Part shown: positions 1,308 to 20,719 of the stretch, piece after piece
Layout: the number at the start of each line of letters is the position of its first letter
How positions within the stretch are numbered: position 1 is the stretch's first letter
NCBI GenBank assembly: GCA_030272585.1
Contig: BSYQ01000007.1
Coordinates: 5,274,001 to 5,338,000, forward strand
Length of the DNA: 64,000 bases
Origin: Bryopsis sp. KO-2023
Taxonomy: Eukaryota > Chlorophyta > Ulvophyceae > Bryopsidales > Bryopsidaceae
Direction of reading: 5' to 3'
The notes under the pieces: model-generated
What the model saw: only the letters and a program-made list of their open reading frames with translations
Databases searched by the model: none
Told to the model about the DNA's origin: nothing
Position numbers and translations under genes: made by a program

Positions 1308-2425
1308 TCATTTGGAAAACTCGTCTTTGTTGAGAACGAATCTCCAGACAAGGAAAGATCCAATCAAAAACGCAGCTGCCGATGGGGGAGCGATGAGCAG
1401 GCCCACCGCATCAGGGTCGGTTGCGGACTGCATCCACAACGACACATACTCCAGATTTAAGAAAAGATTATTTTATTTTATTTTTTTTTTCTCTTATTAT
1501 TGAATCAGGGGTGCCCCGAACAAGATGCTAAAGAACGAACAAGTGCACCAAGAATCTCTGAGTTTCTGATTGGATACCCAAAATCCAGACATAAATATTT
1601 TTCCCTCCTCCCCAATTGCGCCAGAAGACTGCACTTGATCCAGATATGTGTATTTTCCCCCCAATGGCAAAAACATGCCCAGGAAAGATCTGGCTCGAAT
1701 TCACCAAGATCTCATCTTGATTCCAAAAATAAACTGTTGAATGCACACCTTTTGATATCCTGTGTATGCTGCATAAGTCAACACGGAGATCCACACTCCG
1801 AGCTGGAGGTACGTCCCGAAAAACTTGCCCATCATGCTACCTTCAGGCTCTTTCTCGTCAGTGCTTTCAGGATTACTGGCGGTCGTTTTCGGCGGTGTCT
1901 GAAAAACACCAGAAAACAAATCCTTCGGTGATAAAGTTTATTTTCAAGTTATGGGAAAAAAAATTGTGGGTCGTGGTAAAGCTCCCTCCTTCCTAACATC
2001 ATTTCATATATCCCCCCCACCACTGAGAGCAAAAAAAAAAAGAAAAGGGAAAAATTCAGAAAATTTGCAGAATGCAGAGGTCCTCGACGTAAATGTCAAC
2101 TCTCAACTCTTGCCCCTTTTCTATGGTTTTCCAAAAGACAAGAGCACCCACGTCGCTGCCAGCGTGGCGCAGAGGACAAAAACAACAATCAGACTGCTAC
2201 ACTCAGCAAAAGTATACGAAAGAAACACAGGAACAGATTCTTTACCTCTGGAGTTTTTTCAGGCTCGTTCGCGCTGGCTCTCAGAGACAAACTCCTTCGT
2301 GAAGACAAAGGCGCGAAAACGCGTTTGGCTTGTAGACTCGTCGGAGCCACGGATCTCTTTCGCAGCTGCACGGCCTGTTGGCCAGCCACTGGTAGGCACT
2401 GCTTCAAAGAGAGCTGGGTGGCCAT
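1308..2425 (-). CDS. Small plastid-targeted-looking membrane protein, 156 aa, 3 exons
   Basis: The model is complement(join(1308..1448,1749..1898,2246..2425)); all three exons join in phase 0 with GT-AG borders. Exon 1 (60 codons) starts MATQLSLKQCLPVAG and is rich in Ser, Arg, Lys and Ala with almost no acidic residues up to about residue 50, which is typical of a green-type chloroplast transit peptide. Residues 61-80 are acidic. Two hydrophobic segments follow: about 86-105 (FFGTYLQLGVWISVLTYAAY) and about 127-147 (GLLIAPPSAAAFLIGSFLVW). The tail is short and ends NKDEFSK. It is probably a small plastid (thylakoid or envelope) membrane protein with two spans. I do not recognise the family. 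Its start lies 231 bp from a transposon insertion that occupies its upstream region. Confidence 0.75.
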
Positions 2426-2656
2426 GGCGAAGCACCACTCTGGGAAACGAAGGGGGGAAGAAAACGAGAAGAAACGAAAACGAGACGAAAATTCGGGGCT
2501 GGTGGGGAATAAAGTCATCAAGATTCAAGACCAAATCTTGCGTTTGCACGTGCCTGCGCGTGTCACGTGGGTACCCACGTCATCAATTTCCCACTTTTTG
2601 GAGTAACGGAGCGCAACACGTCACGTAATAGCCGTCTGTCCTGTGTGGTGGTGTCG
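2426..2656. promoter_or_regulatory. Left part of a divergent intergenic region, cut by transposons
   Basis: This is the region 5' of the minus-strand plastid-type gene. With 13961-14100 it forms the original spacer of about 380 bp between two divergent genes (ATGs at 2425 minus and 14101 plus). It contains a close repeat of the core CACGTG/CACGT (near 2555-2580), reminiscent of G-box elements of plant light-regulated promoters. That reading is an inference from the motif alone. Confidence 0.4.
2650..2656. repeat. Target-site duplication of element 1, left copy
   Basis: GGTGTCG directly precedes the left end of element 1 and is repeated directly after its right end (8338-8344). It is a 7-bp direct repeat, as expected for a single transposition event. 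Confidence 0.8.
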
Positions 2657-3977
2657 GAGTTATCTGACAGGGCTAAAATTGGGGGGAGGAGCTCCCACGT
2701 TGTGACCTAAAATCCAGGGGAGGACACAGTGACGGCACGTCCCATTTGTCCGACCAACGGCGACGCCTCCATGTCGCACCTGAACGCGAATCTCAAAACA
2801 GCTCCAGCATCGCAGCTCCCCCAGCACTGCCTCGCCCTCACACTGTCGAGACGCGACAAACAACTCGAGTTGTGGACAGTGAGGGTATTGTGATGTCAGG
2901 CATGGACGAAGTCGGGGTCGTAGTAGTGGGGGTAAACCCGAAACACGCCCAGTGGAAATTCGTCGATTTCTTGAGTGTTCACAGGAACTGGGCTTTTCGA
3001 GGTGGATAGCAGTGACGATGATATGGCTGAGTTGGCGAGGTTGAGGGCGCAAAGGCAGTCCAGTCCAGGAGGAACGAAGGTGATATGTCTTTTTTTCTGT
3101 TTTGTTGAAGAGTAGGAGTGGTTTCAACCAGATTCCATCAAATTTCCATTTCGATTCCATCTAGTTTCCATCGGAAGGACTTCACAGGGACATGTCTGGT
3201 TCCCCTTTGGATTCTGTGTTATTTATATTGGTGAATTATTATGCAGGTTTTCCCCAATCCGGAGGATGACTATGAACATGGCATGAGGGCTCACTTCCCG
3301 GCCACTTTTAGTGAGCGACCATCAAATCCGTACACCAAAAATTCTGAAAAAGAAAATTAGAAAAACTGGAAAACTGGAATAATAAAAATAAAGTACACAA
3401 GGTAGCGGAGGTTGCTTTGAGAGTAGGGGTGTGAAAGAGACAATCTTAGAGTAAGAAGTTGAGGGTTTGGAATGCAGGCCGGAAAGCGGCGGAGGGCCCT
3501 GAAATCATGAAGCTGCATGAAAATATGAGAAGAGGGCAATCAACAAAAGATGACAAAACTGACGATGGTGGCGAAATCGCCCCTGAAGAACAGAATCCCG
3601 TGTCTTCTTCACGTGGTAGGTGAACTCACACCCACCCATCAACTCTCACCAGTTTGCCATCAAGTGGAGAAACTACGTTTCTGCTGCCTGCACGTGCAAT
3701 TTATTTTTCTTATCGAAAATGCAAGACACCTGTCCGATCAATGAAGGGAGATTGATCAAACTCAATTTGTCCTAAGCGAAATCCTTGTATTTTCTCTCAT
3801 TTTGACGGGTCGAAATACCCATGAGTTATGTTTCTCTGTTCTCCCCAATACACTGCTGGGTTGAATTATTCTAAATTCACAATGTGCAGATGAAACGGTT
3901 TGGCCACCTGTGGACGATGCCAGTCCCTCTTGGGATGGTATGAATGACGATGAGGATGACGACGACCCCTACATGCT
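2657..3977 (+). repeat. Left terminal inverted repeat, element 1
   Basis: The inverted partner is 7017-8337; paired positions sum to 10994 throughout, so there is no length change between them. The inner end coincides with the codon triplet ...TACATGCT, where the WDR70-like exon jumps to different sequence in the two arms. Most of the repeat is captured exon-intron sequence, so the transposon's own terminal signal may be only the outermost bases. Confidence 0.9.
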
Positions 3978-4462
3978 AAGGGAGAAGGATTTGATGGATC
4001 AAGTGAAAGCACGGAGACCCGATCCTGGGATGGCTGTGTCTGGCTTGGGGAAGGGTGGCAAATTGGGGGCCACTGGTGGAACCTTGCTTACTCAGCATCT
4101 GTTGAGGAGAAGAGTAAGCGAATCGACCTGGACGAAAACCTCTTTTCAAAAAACCCCATGTATATATTTCAAGTGACAAGCTTCTCAGTTTTTGTTCCAT
4201 TATATGCGTTTTTCTCATTAGACATAGCCAGTGGCACACTCCTGCGATTCAAGTTTTGAAAGCTGTACGTATATGTTCCCAGGGGAAGATGATGTCAGTG
4301 GATGAGGAGCGCGACCCAAGAGAGGCTCTCCTCAGACATGCCAACGAGAAGGATGCATTTTCATTGTGCACGGCAGCCTACAAAAAGACCCAGCCCGAAC
4401 CCATATTCGCTGATGTTGAGGAAGAGGGCGAAGAGGATGAAGCGGACAGAAAGGGGGATTAA
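2985..4462 (+). pseudogene. WDR70-like gene with the WD40 domain deleted (N-terminal exons joined to C-terminal exons), copy 1
   Basis: Consecutive exons join in frame: 2985-3079 (SSDDDMAELARLRAQRQ), 3246-about 3310 (VFPNPEDDYEHGMRAHF), about 3475-3616 (RKAAEGPEIMKLHENMRR, then an acidic stretch), 3891-4113, and 4283-4462. In the fourth exon, DDDDPYML runs directly into REKDLMDQVKARRPDPGM at 3977/3978. The last exon reads RDPREALLRHANEKD and AYKKTQPEPIFADVEEE and stops at 4462. This end resembles the C-terminus of WDR70, including the GGTL, PREALLRHA and TQPxxxFA motifs. The whole WD40 propeller is missing. The frame stays open across the junction, so a mini-protein could be made. The first coding exon upstream of 2985 could not be fixed. 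Confidence 0.75.
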
Positions 4463-6303
4463 CGATCAAGGGTTTGGGAAAAATATATAGTTTTGGGGGG
4501 AGATGTGATAAGGGCAGTGTATACTTTCTCGACATAAAAGCTGTCTGACTTGGCGATGCTTTGTGCAATTGGAGGCAGTTTTGGACCTTATAGAGGCTCA
4601 AGTATTGTCTGCTGTGCAGTTCTGCGGCTTGTTTTGGGTCATTGTGTTGGATGAGAACATGTGAAGGGCTGGAGAAAGACGGGGTTGTGGTGCCTTGCTC
4701 CGACACCCACCTCGCCGATTCAAATTCACAATCCAAAGTCCGATCGCATTGGTCCCCTACTAATCGATTTCCCATAGCTTCCCATCAGCCAACAGGCACC
4801 AAGGCATTCATTACTTTTGAACCGTCCGTATCAAAGATACCAATAAATATACAAATATGTATTTTGTTTCCAGTCCAATTTCTTGTATCATGGTCCAAGA
4901 TTTCTTGTTCTGAATTTGAAAGGTAATGTGGATCAAGGATGTGGCAAGACCAAGCTGGATGGATCGATGCATATAGCAGTTGGTCATTTGAATTAATCAA
5001 AACGAGCAAACTAAAGTTTGCTGCAACTGGTCTTGGATCACCAAAGTTCGCAAGAAATTTCGATGTTTGCTTTTCGATAGAAAACATTTCTGGTAACTAG
5101 GGGGAGACCTTCCCCATTGCTGTATTTCAAACTGGTTGTATTTTTCCTCAAAAATTCACAAAGCAGGAGTATATCAGTCCGTCCCAGCACACCTGATATT
5201 CTGAGTCAATGAGAGCTGTACACCCTTTCAAGTTTTCTCCAAGGGCAAGAGAACATATGATTTCGACAAGGAATTCAATAGGGATGATTATCAAGAGGAG
5301 TTGCTATCAACAGCCACATTTCAACACTACTTTCTGGGTGCACTGATTCTTCGATCAACCAAGGAATTCCATTGAGTCTCACTGGCAATCAATCAAGAGC
5401 GCTGCAAGGTGAAGCAAGGGTGCAGATATCGAGGATCAAAGTTGTGCTTCAGCCAATACGTCCTTGCCGGAAAACCAAGCATCAGGAAGAGCTAAGAGTT
5501 CAGTTGGAGGTTCCATTTTTGCAGATCCGTGTCAAGTGTCAGGGATCACTCCCCTTCCATGGGAATGCAAAAAAAAAAAAAAATGGTGAAAAAAGGATCA
5601 ATTCAGAATTTAATTTCCGAGTTCTTTGCAATTTGACCTGCCAAACAACCTGGTATGCATACATGGCTCGGACCCCCCACATGGAATTTTCTGTAGCAAG
5701 CTCTTTTGTTGCCTGGTGGTCTAAAAAAGGTTGTAAACTGACTGTGTTGAAATTTTCTGGCCTGTAACACATTCCTCGATGATCATTAGTAACGACAGGC
5801 AAATTAAGCGCTTCTTTGAAAGGGGGTGAGTTGCTTAACTATTGTTGTTTGGTTGATTTCCATTCTGTCTAGGTTCTTTGTTGATGTATTATTATCTTCC
5901 AACTTCCAATCTTTTCAAGAATAATGAAGCCCAGATCAATGATTTTCTTTGGGGTAGTCAGCCAGAAAACACCAATTCTGAATTTGACAGTAAATTGTTG
6001 AGACTCAGGCATCGCTTGATGAAAGTCATGATGTCTGAGAAGCCAATCCACTTCTTGGTCTACTCTTAACACCTTTGTGAAGCGAAACAGTGGGGAATTT
6101 CAATACGAGTCACAGCACAGTTCTGGAATCCCGAACAATGAAGTCCAGATGTAAGGATTCAACACTTCAAAAGACTACATGCCTGCAACCTGCTACGATT
6201 CTGCTAAAAATAGATGGATAACAAGATCCTGACCACAATCATTTCCACCTGCCGGCCATAATCGTCGCGATTCTTTTTGTTTCTCCGTCTGTGTACTTCT
6301 TGC
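4463..6303. other. Interior of element 1 with no recognised gene
   Basis: This is AT-rich sequence following the WDR70-like stop codon. It presumably includes a captured 3' untranslated and flanking region. The open frames here (for example 4642-4926 and 5372-5767) have unremarkable composition and match no family I know. A run of about 13 A lies at 5569-5582. The same sequence is present inverted in element 2. Confidence 0.5.
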
Positions 6304-6918
6304 TTAACTCATCCCTTCCGCTGGTATTTCAACTGAATTCGCATTCCCTCCAGGCTGCACATGAGTGAAATCCACTCTCTCCCCACTGAAACGGGGTTTG
6401 CTCCTGCCAATCAAATCCCTCCAGTTCGGCACACCATGCCCAGCTTCAGGTCCAAATGCCAGGCTGTCCCTTCCTCCAGATTTTTCATATCCATGTAGGA
6501 GCTGAGCAGGTTTATACTGGTTGGATCGGTTGCTGTGCCAGTTGGACGTTGGTTCCAAATAACCTCTGGCTTCCTCTGATAGGAGGCTTTTCCACCGGCC
6601 AGGCTGACGTGGAATTTTATATTTATCGAGTAGCGAGTCCATCGGAACATCATGCGTAGTTTTCACTCCTTTCGGACAGCTCCTGCTTGGCTCAATCCCC
6701 GCAGCCGACAGGTTCAAAGGCTGGCCATAGGAATGCACATTTTGTGCAGAGGGGAACTGATCGCATGCATCCCCCAAAACCTGACCAGGTGCATGATTTT
6801 CCTCATTGTGCCTTTCTTGAGGAATGACAGAGAAGGGAGCGGACCTTGGCCGATGGTAATTTGAACGAAATGAACTCACAGGGGGCTGTGGTGCACTTGG
6901 AGAAGCAGTTGACACCAT
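6304..6918 (-). pseudogene. Captured 3' fragment of an unidentified gene, copy 1 (about 204 codons)
   Basis: This open frame of 615 bases on the minus strand follows the WDR70-like fragment in a different frame. It opens MVSTASPSAPQPPVSS and ends ...NSVEIPAEGMS. The second half (DSLLDKYKIP, GVPNWRDLIGRSKPRFSGE) has coding-like composition. The switch from WDR70 to this frame occurs near 6916, without an obvious intron. The simplest reading is that it is the end of a second host gene fused during capture. I do not recognise the family. The same frame is intact in element 2 at 9699-10313. Confidence 0.5.
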
Positions 6919-8009
6919 AGTCGTAGGAACCCGTGACGATTCTAGCCCCGGATCGATCGACGTCCAAAGACACTACTTTTGTGTGTCCTTTCAAAACAGC
7001 CTCATGAGTGATGGGCAGCATGTAGGGGTCGTCGTCATCCTCATCGTCATTCATACCATCCCAAGAGGGACTGGCATCGTCCACAGGTGGCCAAACCGTT
7101 TCATCTGCACATTGTGAATTTAGAATAATTCAACCCAGCAGTGTATTGGGGAGAACAGAGAAACATAACTCATGGGTATTTCGACCCGTCAAAATGAGAG
7201 AAAATACAAGGATTTCGCTTAGGACAAATTGAGTTTGATCAATCTCCCTTCATTGATCGGACAGGTGTCTTGCATTTTCGATAAGAAAAATAAATTGCAC
7301 GTGCAGGCAGCAGAAACGTAGTTTCTCCACTTGATGGCAAACTGGTGAGAGTTGATGGGTGGGTGTGAGTTCACCTACCACGTGAAGAAGACACGGGATT
7401 CTGTTCTTCAGGGGCGATTTCGCCACCATCGTCAGTTTTGTCATCTTTTGTTGATTGCCCTCTTCTCATATTTTCATGCAGCTTCATGATTTCAGGGCCC
7501 TCCGCCGCTTTCCGGCCTGCATTCCAAACCCTCAACTTCTTACTCTAAGATTGTCTCTTTCACACCCCTACTCTCAAAGCAACCTCCGCTACCTTGTGTA
7601 CTTTATTTTTATTATTCCAGTTTTCCAGTTTTTCTAATTTTCTTTTTCAGAATTTTTGGTGTACGGATTTGATGGTCGCTCACTAAAAGTGGCCGGGAAG
7701 TGAGCCCTCATGCCATGTTCATAGTCATCCTCCGGATTGGGGAAAACCTGCATAATAATTCACCAATATAAATAACACAGAATCCAAAGGGGAACCAGAC
7801 ATGTCCCTGTGAAGTCCTTCCGATGGAAACTAGATGGAATCGAAATGGAAATTTGATGGAATCTGGTTGAAACCACTCCTACTCTTCAACAAAACAGAAA
7901 AAAAGACATATCACCTTCGTTCCTCCTGGACTGGACTGCCTTTGCGCCCTCAACCTCGCCAACTCAGCCATATCATCGTCACTGCTATCCACCTCGAAAA
8001 GCCCAGTTC
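6916..8009 (-). pseudogene. WDR70-like N-terminal exons running into the first WD repeat, right arm of element 1
   Basis: This is the inverted copy of the N-terminal exons at 2985-3977. Here DDDDPYML continues as PITHEAVLKGHTKVVSLDVD and SGARIVTGSYDYG, which matches the start of the WD40 domain of WDR70 proteins (an H-x-x-x-V-S-x-L-D-x-D-x-SGAR-x-VTG-x-YDY pattern). This arm therefore keeps the natural continuation, while the left arm carries the deletion. Coding sequence of WDR70 type ends at YDYG near 6916, where an unrelated frame begins. The two arms converge toward the element centre. Confidence 0.75.
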
Positions 8010-8337
8010 CTGTGAACACTCAAGAAATCGACGAATTTCCACTGGGCGTGTTTCGGGTTTACCCCCACTACTACGACCCCGACTTCGTCCATGCCTGACA
8101 TCACAATACCCTCACTGTCCACAACTCGAGTTGTTTGTCGCGTCTCGACAGTGTGAGGGCGAGGCAGTGCTGGGGGAGCTGCGATGCTGGAGCTGTTTTG
8201 AGATTCGCGTTCAGGTGCGACATGGAGGCGTCGCCGTTGGTCGGACAAATGGGACGTGCCGTCACTGTGTCCTCCCCTGGATTTTAGGTCACAACGTGGG
8301 AGCTCCTCCCCCCAATTTTAGCCCTGTCAGATAACTC
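7017..8337 (-). repeat. Right terminal inverted repeat, element 1
   Basis: It pairs with 2657-3977 over 1,321 bp. The inner end is at the ATGCT/AGCAT shared between the two arms. Confidence 0.9.
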
Positions 8338-8344
8338 GGTGTCG
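8338..8344. repeat. Target-site duplication of element 1, right copy
   Basis: GGTGTCG immediately follows the right end of element 1 and repeats 2650-2656. Six unduplicated bases, ATTGGG (8345-8350), separate it from the next duplication. Confidence 0.8.
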
Positions 8345-8350
8345 ATTGGG

Positions 8351-8357
8351 AATAAAG
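8351..8357. repeat. Target-site duplication of element 2, left copy
   Basis: AATAAAG directly precedes element 2 and is repeated directly after it at 13961-13967. Confidence 0.8.
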
Positions 8358-9656
8358 GAGTTATCTGACAGGGCTAAAATTGGGGGGAGGAGCTCCCACG
8401 TTGTGACCTAAAATCCAGGGGAGGACACAGTGACGGCACGTCCCATTTGTCCGACCAACGGCGACGCCTCCATGTCGCACCTGAACGCGAATCTCAAAAC
8501 AGCTCCAGCATCGCAGCTCCCCCAGCACTGCCTCGCCCTCACACTGTCGAGACGCGACAAACAACTCGAGTTGTGGACAGTGAGGGTATTGTGATGTCAG
8601 GCATGGACGAAGTCGGGGTCGTAGTAGTGGGGGTAAACCCGAAACACGCCCAGTGGAAATTCGTCGATTTCTTGAGTGTTCACAGGAACTGGGCTTTTCG
8701 AGGTGGATAGCAGTGACGATGATATGGCTGAGTTGGCGAGGTTGAGGGCGCAAAGGCAGTCCAGTCCAGGAGGAACGAAGGTGATATGTCTTTTTTTCTG
8801 TTTTGTTGAAGAGTAGGAGTGGTTTCAACCAGATTCCATCAAATTTCCATTTCGATTCCATCTAGTTTCCATCGGAAGGACTTCACAGGGACATGTCTGG
8901 TTCCCCTTTGGATTCTGTGTTATTTATATTGGTGAATTATTATGCAGGTTTTCCCCAATCCGGAGGATGACTATGAACATGGCATGAGGGCTCACTTCCC
9001 GGCCACTTTTAGTGAGCGACCATCAAATCCGTACACCAAAAATTCTGAAAAAGAAAATTAGAAAAACTGGAAAACTGGAATAATAAAAATAAAGTACACA
9101 AGGTAGCGGAGGTTGCTTTGAGAGTAGGGGTGTGAAAGAGACAATCTTAGAGTAAGAAGTTGAGGGTTTGGAATGCAGGCCGGAAAGCGGCGGAGGGCCC
9201 TGAAATCATGAAGCTGCATGAAAATATGAGAAGAGGGCAATCAACAAAAGATGACAAAACTGACGATGGTGGCGAAATCGCCCCTGAAGAACAGAATCCC
9301 GTGTCTTCTTCACGTGGTAGGTGAACTCACACCCACCCATCAACTCTCACCAGTTTGCCATCAAGTGGAGAAACTACGTTTCTGCTGCCTGCACGTGCAA
9401 TTTATTTTTCTTATCGAAAATGCAAGACACCTGTCCGATCAATGAAGGGAGATTGATCAAACTCAATTTGTCCTAAGCGAAATCCTTGTATTTTCTCTCA
9501 TTTTGACGGGTCGAAATACCCATGAGTTATGTTTCTCTGTTCTCCCCAATACACTGCTGGGTTGAATTATTCTAAATTCACAATGTGCAGATGAAACGGT
9601 TTGGCCACCTGTGGACGATGCCAGTCCCTCTTGGGATGGTATGAATGACGATGAGG
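8358..9656 (+). repeat. Inverted repeat of element 2, arm shortened at its inner end
   Basis: It corresponds to 7017-8337 of element 1 but lacks the innermost bases because of the 78-bp deletion. The partner arm is at 12640-13960. Confidence 0.85.
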
Positions 9657-9701
9657 TCGATCGATCCGGGGCTAGAATCGTCACGGGTTCCTACGACTAT
9701 G
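8686..9701 (+). pseudogene. WDR70-like N-terminal exons with an in-frame 26-codon deletion, element 2
   Basis: Exon order and splice sites are the same as in the right arm of element 1. The fourth exon reads SPSWDGMNDDE and then VDRSGARIVTGSYDYG. The 26 residues from DDDDPYML through KVVSLD are missing, exactly 78 bp and in frame. The deletion removes the start of the first WD repeat and the inner end of the terminal repeat. It is the only large difference between the two elements. Confidence 0.75.
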
Positions 9702-10313
9702 GTGTCAACTGCTTCTCCAAGTGCACCACAGCCCCCTGTGAGTTCATTTCGTTCAAATTACCATCGGCCAAGGTCCGCTCCCTTCTCTGTCATTCCTCAA
9801 GAAAGGCACAATGAGGAAAATCATGCACCTGGTCAGGTTTTGGGGGATGCATGCGATCAGTTCCCCTCTGCACAAAATGTGCATTCCTATGGCCAGCCTT
9901 TGAACCTGTCGGCTGCGGGGATTGAGCCAAGCAGGAGCTGTCCGAAAGGAGTGAAAACTACGCATGATGTTCCGATGGACTCGCTACTCGATAAATATAA
10001 AATTCCACGTCAGCCTGGCCGGTGGAAAAGCCTCCTATCAGAGGAAGCCAGAGGTTATTTGGAACCAACGTCCAACTGGCACAGCAACCGATCCAACCAG
10101 TATAAACCTGCTCAGCTCCTACATGGATATGAAAAATCTGGAGGAAGGGACAGCCTGGCATTTGGACCTGAAGCTGGGCATGGTGTGCCGAACTGGAGGG
10201 ATTTGATTGGCAGGAGCAAACCCCGTTTCAGTGGGGAGAGAGTGGATTTCACTCATGTGCAGCCTGGAGGGAATGCGAATTCAGTTGAAATACCAGCGGA
10301 AGGGATGAGTTAA
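9699..10313 (+). pseudogene. Captured 3' fragment of an unidentified gene, copy 2
   Basis: This is the second copy of the frame at 6304-6918 and reads the same protein without a stop. Because of the 78-bp deletion, one open frame now runs from about 9645 through this piece (222 codons), but in a different frame from the WDR70 codons. Confidence 0.5.
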
Positions 10314-12154
10314 GCAAGAAGTACACAGACGGAGAAACAAAAAGAATCGCGACGATTATGGCCGGCAGGTGGAAATGATTGTGGTCAGGATCTTGTTATC
10401 CATCTATTTTTAGCAGAATCGTAGCAGGTTGCAGGCATGTAGTCTTTTGAAGTGTTGAATCCTTACATCTGGACTTCATTGTTCGGGATTCCAGAACTGT
10501 GCTGTGACTCGTATTGAAATTCCCCACCGTTTCGCTTCACAAAGGTGTTAAGAGTAGACCAAGAAGTGGATTGGCTTCTCAGACATCATGACTTTCATCA
10601 AGCGATGCCTGAGTCTCAACAATTTACTGTCAAATTCAGAATTGGTGTTTTCTGGCTGACTACCCCAAAGAAAATCATTGATCTGGGCTTCATTATTCTT
10701 GAAAAGATTGGAAGTTGGAAGATAATAATACATCAACAAAGAACCTAGACAGAATGGAAATCAACCAAACAACAATAGTTAAGCAACTCACCCCCTTTCA
10801 AAGAAGCGCTTAATTTGCCTGTCGTTACTAATGATCATCGAGGAATGTGTTACAGGCCAGAAAATTTCAACACAGTCAGTTTACAACCTTTTTTAGACCA
10901 CCAGGCAACAAAAGAGCTTGCTACAGAAAATTCCATGTGGGGGGTCCGAGCCATGTATGCATACCAGGTTGTTTGGCAGGTCAAATTGCAAAGAACTCGG
11001 AAATTAAATTCTGAATTGATCCTTTTTTCACCATTTTTTTTTTTTTTTGCATTCCCATGGAAGGGGAGTGATCCCTGACACTTGACACGGATCTGCAAAA
11101 ATGGAACCTCCAACTGAACTCTTAGCTCTTCCTGATGCTTGGTTTTCCGGCAAGGACGTATTGGCTGAAGCACAACTTTGATCCTCGATATCTGCACCCT
11201 TGCTTCACCTTGCAGCGCTCTTGATTGATTGCCAGTGAGACTCAATGGAATTCCTTGGTTGATCGAAGAATCAGTGCACCCAGAAAGTAGTGTTGAAATG
11301 TGGCTGTTGATAGCAACTCCTCTTGATAATCATCCCTATTGAATTCCTTGTCGAAATCATATGTTCTCTTGCCCTTGGAGAAAACTTGAAAGGGTGTACA
11401 GCTCTCATTGACTCAGAATATCAGGTGTGCTGGGACGGACTGATATACTCCTGCTTTGTGAATTTTTGAGGAAAAATACAACCAGTTTGAAATACAGCAA
11501 TGGGGAAGGTCTCCCCCTAGTTACCAGAAATGTTTTCTATCGAAAAGCAAACATCGAAATTTCTTGCGAACTTTGGTGATCCAAGACCAGTTGCAGCAAA
11601 CTTTAGTTTGCTCGTTTTGATTAATTCAAATGACCAACTGCTATATGCATCGATCCATCCAGCTTGGTCTTGCCACATCCTTGATCCACATTACCTTTCA
11701 AATTCAGAACAAGAAATCTTGGACCATGATACAAGAAATTGGACTGGAAACAAAATACATATTTGTATATTTATTGGTATCTTTGATACGGACGGTTCAA
11801 AAGTAATGAATGCCTTGGTGCCTGTTGGCTGATGGGAAGCTATGGGAAATCGATTAGTAGGGGACCAATGCGATCGGACTTTGGATTGTGAATTTGAATC
11901 GGCGAGGTGGGTGTCGGAGCAAGGCACCACAACCCCGTCTTTCTCCAGCCCTTCACATGTTCTCATCCAACACAATGACCCAAAACAAGCCGCAGAACTG
12001 CACAGCAGACAATACTTGAGCCTCTATAAGGTCCAAAACTGCCTCCAATTGCACAAAGCATCGCCAAGTCAGACAGCTTTTATGTCGAGAAAGTATACAC
12101 TGCCCTTATCACATCTCCCCCCAAAACTATATATTTTTCCCAAACCCTTGATCG
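10314..12154. other. Interior of element 2 with no recognised gene
   Basis: This is the reverse complement of 4463-6303; nothing further is recognised. Confidence 0.5.
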
Positions 12155-13632
12155 TTAATCCCCCTTTCTGTCCGCTTCATCCTCTTCGCCCTCTTCCTCA
12201 ACATCAGCGAATATGGGTTCGGGCTGGGTCTTTTTGTAGGCTGCCGTGCACAATGAAAATGCATCCTTCTCGTTGGCATGTCTGAGGAGAGCCTCTCTTG
12301 GGTCGCGCTCCTCATCCACTGACATCATCTTCCCCTGGGAACATATACGTACAGCTTTCAAAACTTGAATCGCAGGAGTGTGCCACTGGCTATGTCTAAT
12401 GAGAAAAACGCATATAATGGAACAAAAACTGAGAAGCTTGTCACTTGAAATATATACATGGGGTTTTTTGAAAAGAGGTTTTCGTCCAGGTCGATTCGCT
12501 TACTCTTGTCCTCAACAGATGCTGAGTAAGCAAGGTTCCACCAGTGGCCCCCAATTTGCCACCCTTCCCCAAGCCAGACACAGCCATCCCAGGATCGGGT
12601 CTCCGTGCTTTCACTTGATCCATCAAATCCTTCTCCCTTAGCATGTAGGGGTCGTCGTCATCCTCATCGTCATTCATACCATCCCAAGAGGGACTGGCAT
12701 CGTCCACAGGTGGCCAAACCGTTTCATCTGCACATTGTGAATTTAGAATAATTCAACCCAGCAGTGTATTGGGGAGAACAGAGAAACATAACTCATGGGT
12801 ATTTCGACCCGTCAAAATGAGAGAAAATACAAGGATTTCGCTTAGGACAAATTGAGTTTGATCAATCTCCCTTCATTGATCGGACAGGTGTCTTGCATTT
12901 TCGATAAGAAAAATAAATTGCACGTGCAGGCAGCAGAAACGTAGTTTCTCCACTTGATGGCAAACTGGTGAGAGTTGATGGGTGGGTGTGAGTTCACCTA
13001 CCACGTGAAGAAGACACGGGATTCTGTTCTTCAGGGGCGATTTCGCCACCATCGTCAGTTTTGTCATCTTTTGTTGATTGCCCTCTTCTCATATTTTCAT
13101 GCAGCTTCATGATTTCAGGGCCCTCCGCCGCTTTCCGGCCTGCATTCCAAACCCTCAACTTCTTACTCTAAGATTGTCTCTTTCACACCCCTACTCTCAA
13201 AGCAACCTCCGCTACCTTGTGTACTTTATTTTTATTATTCCAGTTTTCCAGTTTTTCTAATTTTCTTTTTCAGAATTTTTGGTGTACGGATTTGATGGTC
13301 GCTCACTAAAAGTGGCCGGGAAGTGAGCCCTCATGCCATGTTCATAGTCATCCTCCGGATTGGGGAAAACCTGCATAATAATTCACCAATATAAATAACA
13401 CAGAATCCAAAGGGGAACCAGACATGTCCCTGTGAAGTCCTTCCGATGGAAACTAGATGGAATCGAAATGGAAATTTGATGGAATCTGGTTGAAACCACT
13501 CCTACTCTTCAACAAAACAGAAAAAAAGACATATCACCTTCGTTCCTCCTGGACTGGACTGCCTTTGCGCCCTCAACCTCGCCAACTCAGCCATATCATC
13601 GTCACTGCTATCCACCTCGAAAAGCCCAGTTC
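12155..13632 (-). pseudogene. WDR70-like gene with the WD40 domain deleted, copy 2
   Basis: This is the mirror copy of 2985-4462, with the same exon chain and the same PYML/REKD junction (near 12640). One codon next to the donor of the fourth exon differs, giving Thr where copy 1 has Arg. The C-terminal exon is 12155-12334. The frame is open as in copy 1. Confidence 0.75.
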
Positions 13633-13960
13633 CTGTGAACACTCAAGAAATCGACGAATTTCCACTGGGCGTGTTTCGGGTTTACCCCCACTACTACGAC
13701 CCCGACTTCGTCCATGCCTGACATCACAATACCCTCACTGTCCACAACTCGAGTTGTTTGTCGCGTCTCGACAGTGTGAGGGCGAGGCAGTGCTGGGGGA
13801 GCTGCGATGCTGGAGCTGTTTTGAGATTCGCGTTCAGGTGCGACATGGAGGCGTCGCCGTTGGTCGGACAAATGGGACGTGCCGTCACTGTGTCCTCCCC
13901 TGGATTTTAGGTCACAACGTGGGAGCTCCTCCCCCCAATTTTAGCCCTGTCAGATAACTC
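12640..13960 (-). repeat. Inverted repeat of element 2, full-length arm
   Basis: It is equivalent to the left arm of element 1 and ends CTGTCAGATAACTC, followed by the AATAAAG duplication. Confidence 0.9.
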
Positions 13961-13967
13961 AATAAAG
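13961..13967. repeat. Target-site duplication of element 2, right copy
   Basis: AATAAAG repeats 8351-8357. Native sequence resumes here and runs to the start codon at 14101. Confidence 0.8.
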
Positions 13968-14100: not shown

Positions 14101-14837
14101 ATGGCTGAACGCAAGCTTGTCAGGAGCTGTCTTTCCGAGCGGCTCAGGTCCGACTTCAAGGAGAACGCTAACAGCCACTTGCCACGTCGTGATGTCTACC
14201 GTCAGGACTCTATCAACGCGCAAGTAAAGCAGTGGTAAGGGCATTGAACGGATCTCCTGCGCGTTTTGACGTCATCGGTGCGGGTGGGTTCGTTCAACGT
14301 GACTCGTCGAGGATTTTCTTTTCGTTTTTTTTTAATTCCGCTGCACGGAAGCTGTTTGTTGCGTTGTCGGAAGCGCGTGTTCCGTCTCGTTGCGAAGTTT
14401 TTTTCGTCTTTTGGCTAACGCGACGCAGAACAGTGTTTTGTTGGATGTTTTTTTGCCTTTCGACATTTTTCTCCAAGTCCAGATATTTCGCTGGAGGCTG
14501 GTTACGCTTCTTTTTTTTTTTTCGTTTCCTATTGGCTTCTTTATTTAAAACTATGAGACGACCTGTCTTGAAATTTTCGTCTAATTCGTGTGCGCGCAGG
14601 ACCGCGAAGAGGATCCCGACGGTTGACGTGGGTTCCGAGTTGCAAGCGATTTTCTCTTGCAAGCCTCGCGAGGATTTTTCCGCTGTTTTTGGCTGCTCTC
14701 CCCCCGTCCGCGCGACCAACCCTCTCAGCCGCGACTACCAGTTTCGTAGTTGCGTGTTGGTCAATCCAAACCTTTCGAAAAGGGCTTCTTTGAAAGAAAC
14801 GAGGGAAATATACGCAGCCGTCATGCCAGAAATCTAG
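14101..14837 (+). CDS. Small conserved-looking protein, 123 aa, 2 exons
   Basis: The model is join(14101..14234,14600..14837). The donor is G|GTAAGG and the acceptor GCGCAG|G; the split codon gives Trp. The protein starts MAERKLVRSCLSERLRSDFK and ends REIYAAVMPEI. It is basic in the first half and contains ATNPLSRDYQF near residue 85. Patterns of this sort (NPLxxDxxF) occur in small plant proteins of unknown function. That resemblance comes from memory and is weak. No signal peptide or membrane segment is visible. The open frame that reads through the intron upstream of 14600 is T-rich and non-coding in character. The insertion of two transposons 133 bp upstream has replaced most of its original promoter context. 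Confidence 0.65.
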
Positions 14838-19368: not shown

Positions 19369-20719
19369 ATGAGCCCAGTGACTGAATACATATCGTCCAG
19401 CCCGCTGCTCGCCAACTGTGGATTCACAAAGGAGGATGTCGTCGGAAACGAACATGAATGGCTGAAAGTGTCTGCAATGATCAAGCAGCACTTACAGCTG
19501 GAGGAGGAAAACCTCACCCCAGCCCAACGCTCAAGAGTGTATCAATACTACCTCCCACTAGCCATGTGGATCGAAAACTTGTTGGCGGACCACAAAAAAA
19601 CCGGATCTCAGTCGGCCCTTGTGATTGGAATCAGTGCTCCCCAGGGCTGTGGCAAATCAACGATTGTGGAGTGCCTGCAGGCTGTGTTTGAAGGGAGAGG
19701 TGTGAGGAGCGTTTCGGTTTCGATCGATGATTTCTATTTGACCCGAGCGGAGCAAGTGGCCCTGGCTGAGGCGAACAAGGGCAATCCATTGTTGGAGCTG
19801 AGAGGAAACGCTGGATCCCATGATAACCAGTTGGGAACGGATACTTTGAAACAATTGAAAGGTGGCTGTCAATGTGCTGGATTGCATTCAATTCAAGAAA
19901 CAATTGAAAAGTGGCTGTCGATATGCTGGATTGAATTCAATTCAAGATATGCTGCGAATGGGGAAAAGATTGCATGTACCCGCTCAGTCGATTTTGACAA
20001 ACAGAAAATGGAGAAGGGAGACTGTCCCCTCGTTTCTTGTTGGTTATCGCTTTGAGAATGACTTTGCCCTTTGCTTTTTTATTTGATCAGGTTTGGTGGA
20101 GAAAGGTGCGACTGCAAGCGTCCCTCGCTATGACAAATCGAAACACAGTGGCAAAGGGGATCGTGCTGATGCCTCCGAATGGCCCGCCGTAACTGGACCC
20201 ATTGATGTGGTGCTATTTGAGGGTTGGATGCTTGGATTCAAGTCCATCGGCTCCACCAGAGCAGCCGCCGTTTCACCTCACCTTCCTGCTGTTGACAAAG
20301 CTCTCACTCTTTTGGAGGATGCCTGGGACAAATTCGTGGATGTGTGGTTGGTTGTCAAAGTAGGGGACCCAAAGTGGGTTTTCAAATGGAGGCTGGAAGC
20401 TGAACATAAAATGAGACTGACAGGGAAACCTGGCATGTCCGATTCCGAGGTGGAAGATTTTTGCAACCGGTACATGCCAGCCTACAAAGCTTACCTGCCA
20501 GGGTTGTACGATCATGGGCCTACGACCGTCAAGCCAGGGAAATCGCTGATGATTGAATTGGACAACACCAGGTCCCCTGTGGATAAGCAGCCCGCAAGCC
20601 TCGATTCTGTGAAAGGTGCTGTGACTGATGATGCCAAGCCCACCAGCGCTTCTTCCAAAGCTAACACAATGGCCGGAGCTGAGCTTCTGTTGCTCTGTGT
20701 TTTGGTTTTCCTGTTGTAG
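19369..20719 (+). CDS. GLYK: D-glycerate 3-kinase (photorespiration), 373 aa, 2 exons
   Basis: The model is join(19369..19861,20091..20719). This enzyme phosphorylates D-glycerate to 3-phosphoglycerate, the last step of the photorespiratory cycle, normally in the plastid. The P-loop GISAPQGCGKST is at about 87-98. It is followed by SVSIDDFYLT, LLELRGNAGSHD, VPRYDKSKHSGKGDRAD, ILFEGWMLGFK-type and RWRLEAEHKMR-type motifs, in the order of plant GLYK. The split codon across the intron restores LKG-LVEKGATASVPRY. The start is uncertain: an in-frame ATG at 19309 and splice acceptors lie just upstream, and no clear transit peptide is visible. The protein ends with a spacer and a hydrophobic tail, MAGAELLLLCVLVFLL, not expected in this soluble enzyme. 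Identity is very likely; the N-terminus is not settled. Confidence 0.9.
19848..19945. repeat. Tandem duplication across the kinase exon-intron border, period 49 bp
   Basis: GAAACAATTGAAA and the following 36 bases recur once, at 19848 and 19897, with a few differences. The first copy spans the end of exon 1 and the donor site; the second lies in the intron and has an altered donor context (AAAAGTGG instead of AAAGGTGG). Confidence 0.8.

Follow-up and report, generated by a model that had tools for sequence, protein, structure and literature searches.

The 11.3-kb stretch between positions 2657 and 13960 reads at first as one giant palindrome, and it raises the question of whether a single inserted element was copied in inverted form or whether the same element was inserted twice at almost the same place. 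We examined the structure within the window, by which we mean the whole stretch of 64,000 nucleotides of Bryopsis sp. KO-2023 DNA that was analysed. The palindrome and its borders resolve into the following features:

2650..2656 (no strand): left 7-bp target duplication of copy 1 (GGTGTCG)
2657..8337 (+): element copy 1, 5681 bp
2657..2858 (+): terminal 202 bp of copy 1, with mirrors at 8136-8337, 8358-8559 and 13759-13960
2657..3977 (+): left arm of copy 1, 1321 bp, 100% identical to its mirror at 7017-8337
7017..8337 (-): right arm of copy 1
8338..8344 (no strand): right 7-bp target duplication of copy 1 (GGTGTCG)
8345..8350 (no strand): ATTGGG, six target bases without duplication
8351..8357 (no strand): left 7-bp target duplication of copy 2 (AATAAAG)
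8358..13960 (-): element copy 2, inverted relative to copy 1, 5603 bp
8358..9656 (+): inner arm of copy 2, 1299 bp, 100% identical to its mirror at 12662-13960
13961..13967 (no strand): right 7-bp target duplication of copy 2 (AATAAAG)

The inverted match is long, pairing 2657-6964 with 9653-13960. Relative to copy 1, copy 2 has two base changes and has lost 78 bp (junction 9656/9657), a deletion that crosses the inner boundary of one arm. The coordinates and duplications given for both copies in the initial annotation are exact to the base. Of random pairs of 7-mers drawn from the window, 43 of 200000 were identical; therefore, the presence of two exact duplications at two element borders is not due to chance. 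We conclude that the palindrome very probably arose when one non-autonomous Pack-type DNA transposon was inserted twice, by separate cut-and-paste events, at points 13 bp apart in the same divergent promoter, with the two copies facing opposite ways. Before these insertions, the empty site would have read GGTGTCGATTGGGAATAAAG (GGTGTCG-ATTGGG-AATAAAG, 20 bp).

We searched the genome (91.1 Mb in 28 contigs, from one assembly) for further copies; repeat counts from this search are lower bounds. Introns and a WDR70 gene mark the genome as eukaryotic. Using the first 300 bases of the element, we identified at least four full copies at three places: two in the window, one on C3 and one on C4. The C4 copy (5682 bp) has one indel relative to copy 1 and is flanked by the duplication CATAATC, and the C3 copy (5688 bp; 99.5% identity) is flanked by CTCAGTG. 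The target duplications of the near-identical copies, GGTGTCG, AATAAAG, CATAATC and CTCAGTG, are all distinct. Two 8-kb relatives, on C1 and C2, terminate on both sides in the same 202-bp sequence as the element, with 94-95% identity, and have exact 7-bp duplications of their own (CCAACTC and AGCAAGC). The two 440-bp ends within an 8-kb element are 95.7% alike, although the two 8-kb elements are 99.9% alike to each other. The element has GAG..CTC ends and terminal inverted repeats (TIRs) of at least 202 bp.

A looser end pattern and a further search yielded two more families, and 28 end stretches were retrieved. The looser pattern gave 45 matches, from which five chance-like matches, each with two mismatches, were left out; a control pattern gave 21. 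All three families share GAGTTA ends, and an exact 7-bp duplication flanks 6 of 6 two-ended copies in family A (the element itself and its 8-kb relatives), 2 of 2 in family B and 5 of 7 in family C. Excluded from this set of 15 copies were, for family A, lone ends on C9 and C11 together with an incomplete match on C5; for family B, a copy on C6 whose right end lacks the last 10 bases and a single end on C8; and for family C, a copy with a shortened right end on C2 and single ends at C3:6301430 and on C7, C8, C13 and C15. The end pattern of the element's own family, allowing up to three mismatches, gave 15 matches, of which 14 are known ends; the one other match is a remnant of 20 bases on C11.

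That remnant is an isolated, exact match to the right end of the element (bases 419-438 of L070, G000:C11:857500-858500). We saw no further element sequence around it in the L070 region, and it is either a heavily truncated copy or a footprint; a further single end stands ~8.1 kb away, at C11:866057. Elsewhere, on C6 (L095/L096, 6164252-6177816), two family C ends stand 13.6 kb apart within an exact duplication, CACCCTC, and delimit either a giant element or an element with nested insertions.

One base bears on the relationship between the two window copies. At element position 1453, the native WDR70 gene, part of which the element carries (see below), has C, as do copy 2 and the C3 copy; G is present in copy 1 and in the copy on C4. 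The shared derived G indicates, from this one base, that copy 1 and copy 2 are not each other's closest relatives. That copy 1 pairs with the C4 copy, and not with its neighbour, speaks against a single insertion made palindromic by replication or repair, a reading that would readily explain why the copies are inverted and nearly identical, but not why there are two different complete 7-bp duplications, nor why the inverted match does not extend beyond the element; we give inverted duplication almost no weight. The initial annotation had argued for two separate transpositions over a replication or repair palindrome, and its argument is strengthened by the flanks of the other copies, on which it had staked a refuting test and against which it holds up: an exact 7-bp duplication is present in 13 of the 15 two-ended copies, with 6 of 7 bases matching in one of the remaining copies and 1 of 7 in the other. 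A further possibility is that the assembly joined two haplotypes, each with one insertion at neighbouring sites. Only one assembly is involved, and copies that are near-identical across 5.6 kb would favour such a chimera. However, the switch between haplotypes would have to lie within the 20 bp that separate the copies, the insertions have single-copy flanks and lie on a 6.2-Mb contig, and a chimera would still require two insertions 13 bp apart; hence, we consider this improbable, though less so than inverted duplication. The single-copy status of the flanks extends over 800 bp on each side of the insertions at the sensitivity of the search, except for 56 bp in the plus-strand flanking gene that are 88% alike to a sequence on C11.

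Two independent insertions still leave the spacing of 13 bp to be explained. The flanking genes, both read by eye, are as follows:

1308..2425 (-): divergent flanking gene of ~3 exons, with start codon at 2425 and a transit-peptide-like N terminus
14101..14837 (+): divergent flanking gene, with start codon at 14101

By this reading, the target is the 377-bp gap that separates the divergent start codons at 2425 (minus strand) and 14101 (plus strand), and it reads as a putative divergent promoter that was struck by both insertions. The transit-peptide-like sequence of the minus-strand gene, one sequence only, suggests that the host is an alga. The pieces of the minus-strand gene that were tested had no Pfam or PDB match, and the first exon of the plus-strand gene had no Pfam match above the cut-off and no PDB match. 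For the copies on C1-C4, the neighbouring reading frames had no clear gene starts.

The initial annotation had suggested strong target preference, or a transposase attracted to an existing copy, as the cause of the double hit. The pooled target motif from 13 exact sites is weak and symmetric and lies at the edges of the duplication; its best position has p=0.0005 against 2000 shuffles, a value that is uncorrected for the number of positions and that includes two window sites with shared flanks, which are non-independent. Against ordinary positions, the two window sites score at the 87th and 78th percentile by this motif; within the local empty-site stretch, they come 29th and 55th among 293 positions. 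We therefore reject strong target sequence preference as the main cause, given a weak motif and ordinary window sites. Under uniform targeting, the expected number of insertion pairs no more than 13 bp apart is 1.7e-6 for 4 insertions, 3.0e-5 for 15 and 8.6e-5 for 25, and since target preference is weak, a coincidence within 13 bp is unlikely. Promoter accessibility would raise the expected number of pairs. The double hit would have resulted from an accessible promoter, from a transposase drawn to the resident copy, or from both; the accessible promoter is favoured, and the pull of the resident copy is its main rival.

Local hops are known for P and Ac elements, and a special case of two separate insertions is that one of the window copies inserted beside its own donor, the other window copy. 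The very low expectation for 4 and for 15 uniformly targeted insertions is an argument for such a hop. However, copy 1 is closest to the C4 copy and not to copy 2, such that a hop would be possible if the C4 copy later left the site of copy 1; we regard a local hop as a minority possibility, albeit a much more credible one than a chimera. Double insertion of one element has also been described as giving rise to tandem repeats (McGurk and Barbash 2018, as cited in the available text of PMC12628747 and PMC12368964). The situation is alike in that one element is present in two copies at a single genomic site. It differs in that those insertions, as summarised in the same two papers, are commonly head-to-tail with the target duplication re-used, whereas here the copies are inverted and the two duplications are 6 bp apart. 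Inverted copies with two different duplications rule out a tandem double insertion of that type. Our literature search for the classical double P insertions of Drosophila, and for double insertions generally, yielded nothing beyond the papers cited.

To which superfamily does the element belong? In its two scanned reading frames, the element itself has no transposase match, and evidence comes from its relatives. The 8-kb relatives contain an 820-aa frame with a CxC4 domain (2.5e-7, above the Pfam cut-off), and a later exon of family A matches the KDZ (Kyakuja-Dileera-Zisupton) domain at 6.4e-4 (19.9 bits, below the cut-off of 26.6). Family B likewise has a CxC4 match above the cut-off (7.5e-12) and an exon that matches the KDZ domain below it (4.8e-5, 23.6 bits). 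CxC domains are the cysteine clusters associated with the KDZ superfamily. In a third related protein, the Pfam domain scan matched neither KDZ nor CxC. All three related proteins retain the motifs ADG, YDNxCN and AEQ, which we infer to be putative catalytic residues. A search of the 820-aa frame against 5.8 billion proteins returned no relative at E <= 0.001. The 7-bp duplication falls within the 4-8 bp reported for the KDZ superfamily in the available text of PMC12730594 and PMC12810828. Thus, the relatives with the same ends, with their CxC4 and KDZ-like matches and their TIRs, resemble KDZ elements, and we describe the element as KDZ-like, with its lineage within KDZ left unassigned. Mobilisation would have occurred in trans, by the KDZ-like transposase of the relatives, as suggested by the shared ends and the equal duplication length.

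KDZ elements have been reported in brown and green algae (excerpts of PMC12477816 and PMC8226300), and those of Cryptococcus have duplications of 4-8 bp (excerpts of PMC12810828). In fungi, according to the available text of PMC12730594, Zisupton and Dileera have 8-bp duplications, and Kyakuja elements have 7-bp duplications, CA..TG ends and no TIRs. The 7-bp duplication is common to Kyakuja and the element described here, which differs from it in having GAG..CTC ends with long TIRs; ends of this kind and TIRs of at least 202 bp rule out the Kyakuja lineage as described in fungi.

Very long inverted arms are also a property of Drosophila Galileo and Foldback, and Galileo, like the present element, duplicates 7 bp (PMC2775673, available text). 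Membership of a Foldback/Galileo-type family (Mutator or P superfamily) rather than KDZ would suit both the long arms and the missing transposase. However, the relatives with the same ends match CxC4/KDZ, no P or Mutator match was found in the pieces scanned, and the target 7-mers do not fit the GTAGTAC of Galileo; we consider such membership highly improbable. Rather than a classical Foldback element, the element is a KDZ-like transposon that carries pieces of host WDR70.

Most of the interior, and most of the arms, derives from a host gene. Matches to the native locus (L023) are arranged in copy 1 as follows:

2871..4625 (+): captured WDR70 sequence, L023 4202-4425, 4780-5678 and 7114-7758, 87-92% identity, with most WD40 coding sequence absent
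4626..5111 (no strand): 486 bp without a match in the native WDR70 locus; the genome search found it in the four element copies only, with counts as lower bounds
5112..6909 (+): captured sequence from downstream of the WDR70 coding region, L023 7759-9568, 91% identity
6910..8123 (-): second WDR70 copy, inverted, forming most of the right arm, L023 5788-4780 and 4425-4202

The native WDR70 locus lies on C1, away from the window, and an exon of it matches WD repeat-containing protein 70 in the PDB (1.4e-59). This exon is absent from the element, and the coding pieces on either side of it are fused in frame. Comparison of captured and native coding sequence gave dN 0.027, dS 0.119 and dN/dS 0.22 (17 differences over 129 codons in three chosen pieces). 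This ratio is below the expectation for free drift, which suggests that L023 may not be the direct donor; another allele or lineage may have been the donor instead. With a view to possible RNA interference against native WDR70, 21-mers of the arms were compared with the native locus: 125 of 1301 are present there; none were found in the three native exon pieces, outside which most of the exons covered by the arms lie. Capture of WDR70 would have occurred by template switching.

As in Pack-TIR and Pack-MULE elements, host gene pieces lie between transposon ends, the source gene is elsewhere, and there are several copies with distinct duplications. The difference is that the captured gene here also makes up the long inverted arms. 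Gene capture by TIR elements is well known and is documented for MULE, hAT and Tc1/mariner elements in the available text of PMC8277862, a survey of metazoan Pack-TIRs whose main text, in the part available, mentions neither KDZ nor Zisupton. Gene capture is documented for Helitron elements as well, in the text available to us. Among the matches listed by our literature search, which covered titles and the openings of abstracts, we found no description of host gene capture by a non-autonomous KDZ element. A KDZ-like carrier with arms made of a host gene would extend gene capture to a little-studied superfamily.

The arms are identical to each other within each of the four copies. The right arm extends 110 bases deeper into the native gene than the left, and the internal junction is common to both arms. 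The arms would have been extended when the left arm was copied, inverted, onto the right end, probably while native 5679-7113 was still present in the left arm; both features fit this history. In the C3 copy, three arm positions differ from the other copies and have a non-native base, each mirrored in both arms, and we found no unmirrored change in the arms of that copy. The 8-kb elements contrast with this, as their own two 440-bp ends are only 95.7% alike. The simplest reading is that of arm-to-arm conversion within the foldback, to which the mirrored changes point directly, and arm identity would have been maintained by gene conversion of this kind.

The element is a foldback, Pack-type and KDZ-like, that was inserted twice at one hotspot; these kinds are already known, and the variant is new. 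Two insertions 13 bp apart represent a testable case for distinguishing a hotspot from self-targeting, and a standing palindrome with a 20-bp centre bears on the survival of such structures in chromosomes. A more speculative scenario, which we consider unlikely, is that a KDZ-like transposase sitting on the ends of a copy already in place draws in the following insertion, inverted and only a few bp away, such that foldbacks seed giant palindromes, and that the arms, which consist mostly of WDR70 sequence and would be kept identical by conversion, might be a source of long double-stranded RNA with matches to parts of native WDR70.

Scanning the window against Rfam and for tRNAs gave no hits. 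A long CCCCTT minisatellite (L050, ~420-770) adjoins the gene for a more distant relative of the transposase. Within the window, a 49-bp unit is present in two tandem copies at 19848-19947, with 92% matches.
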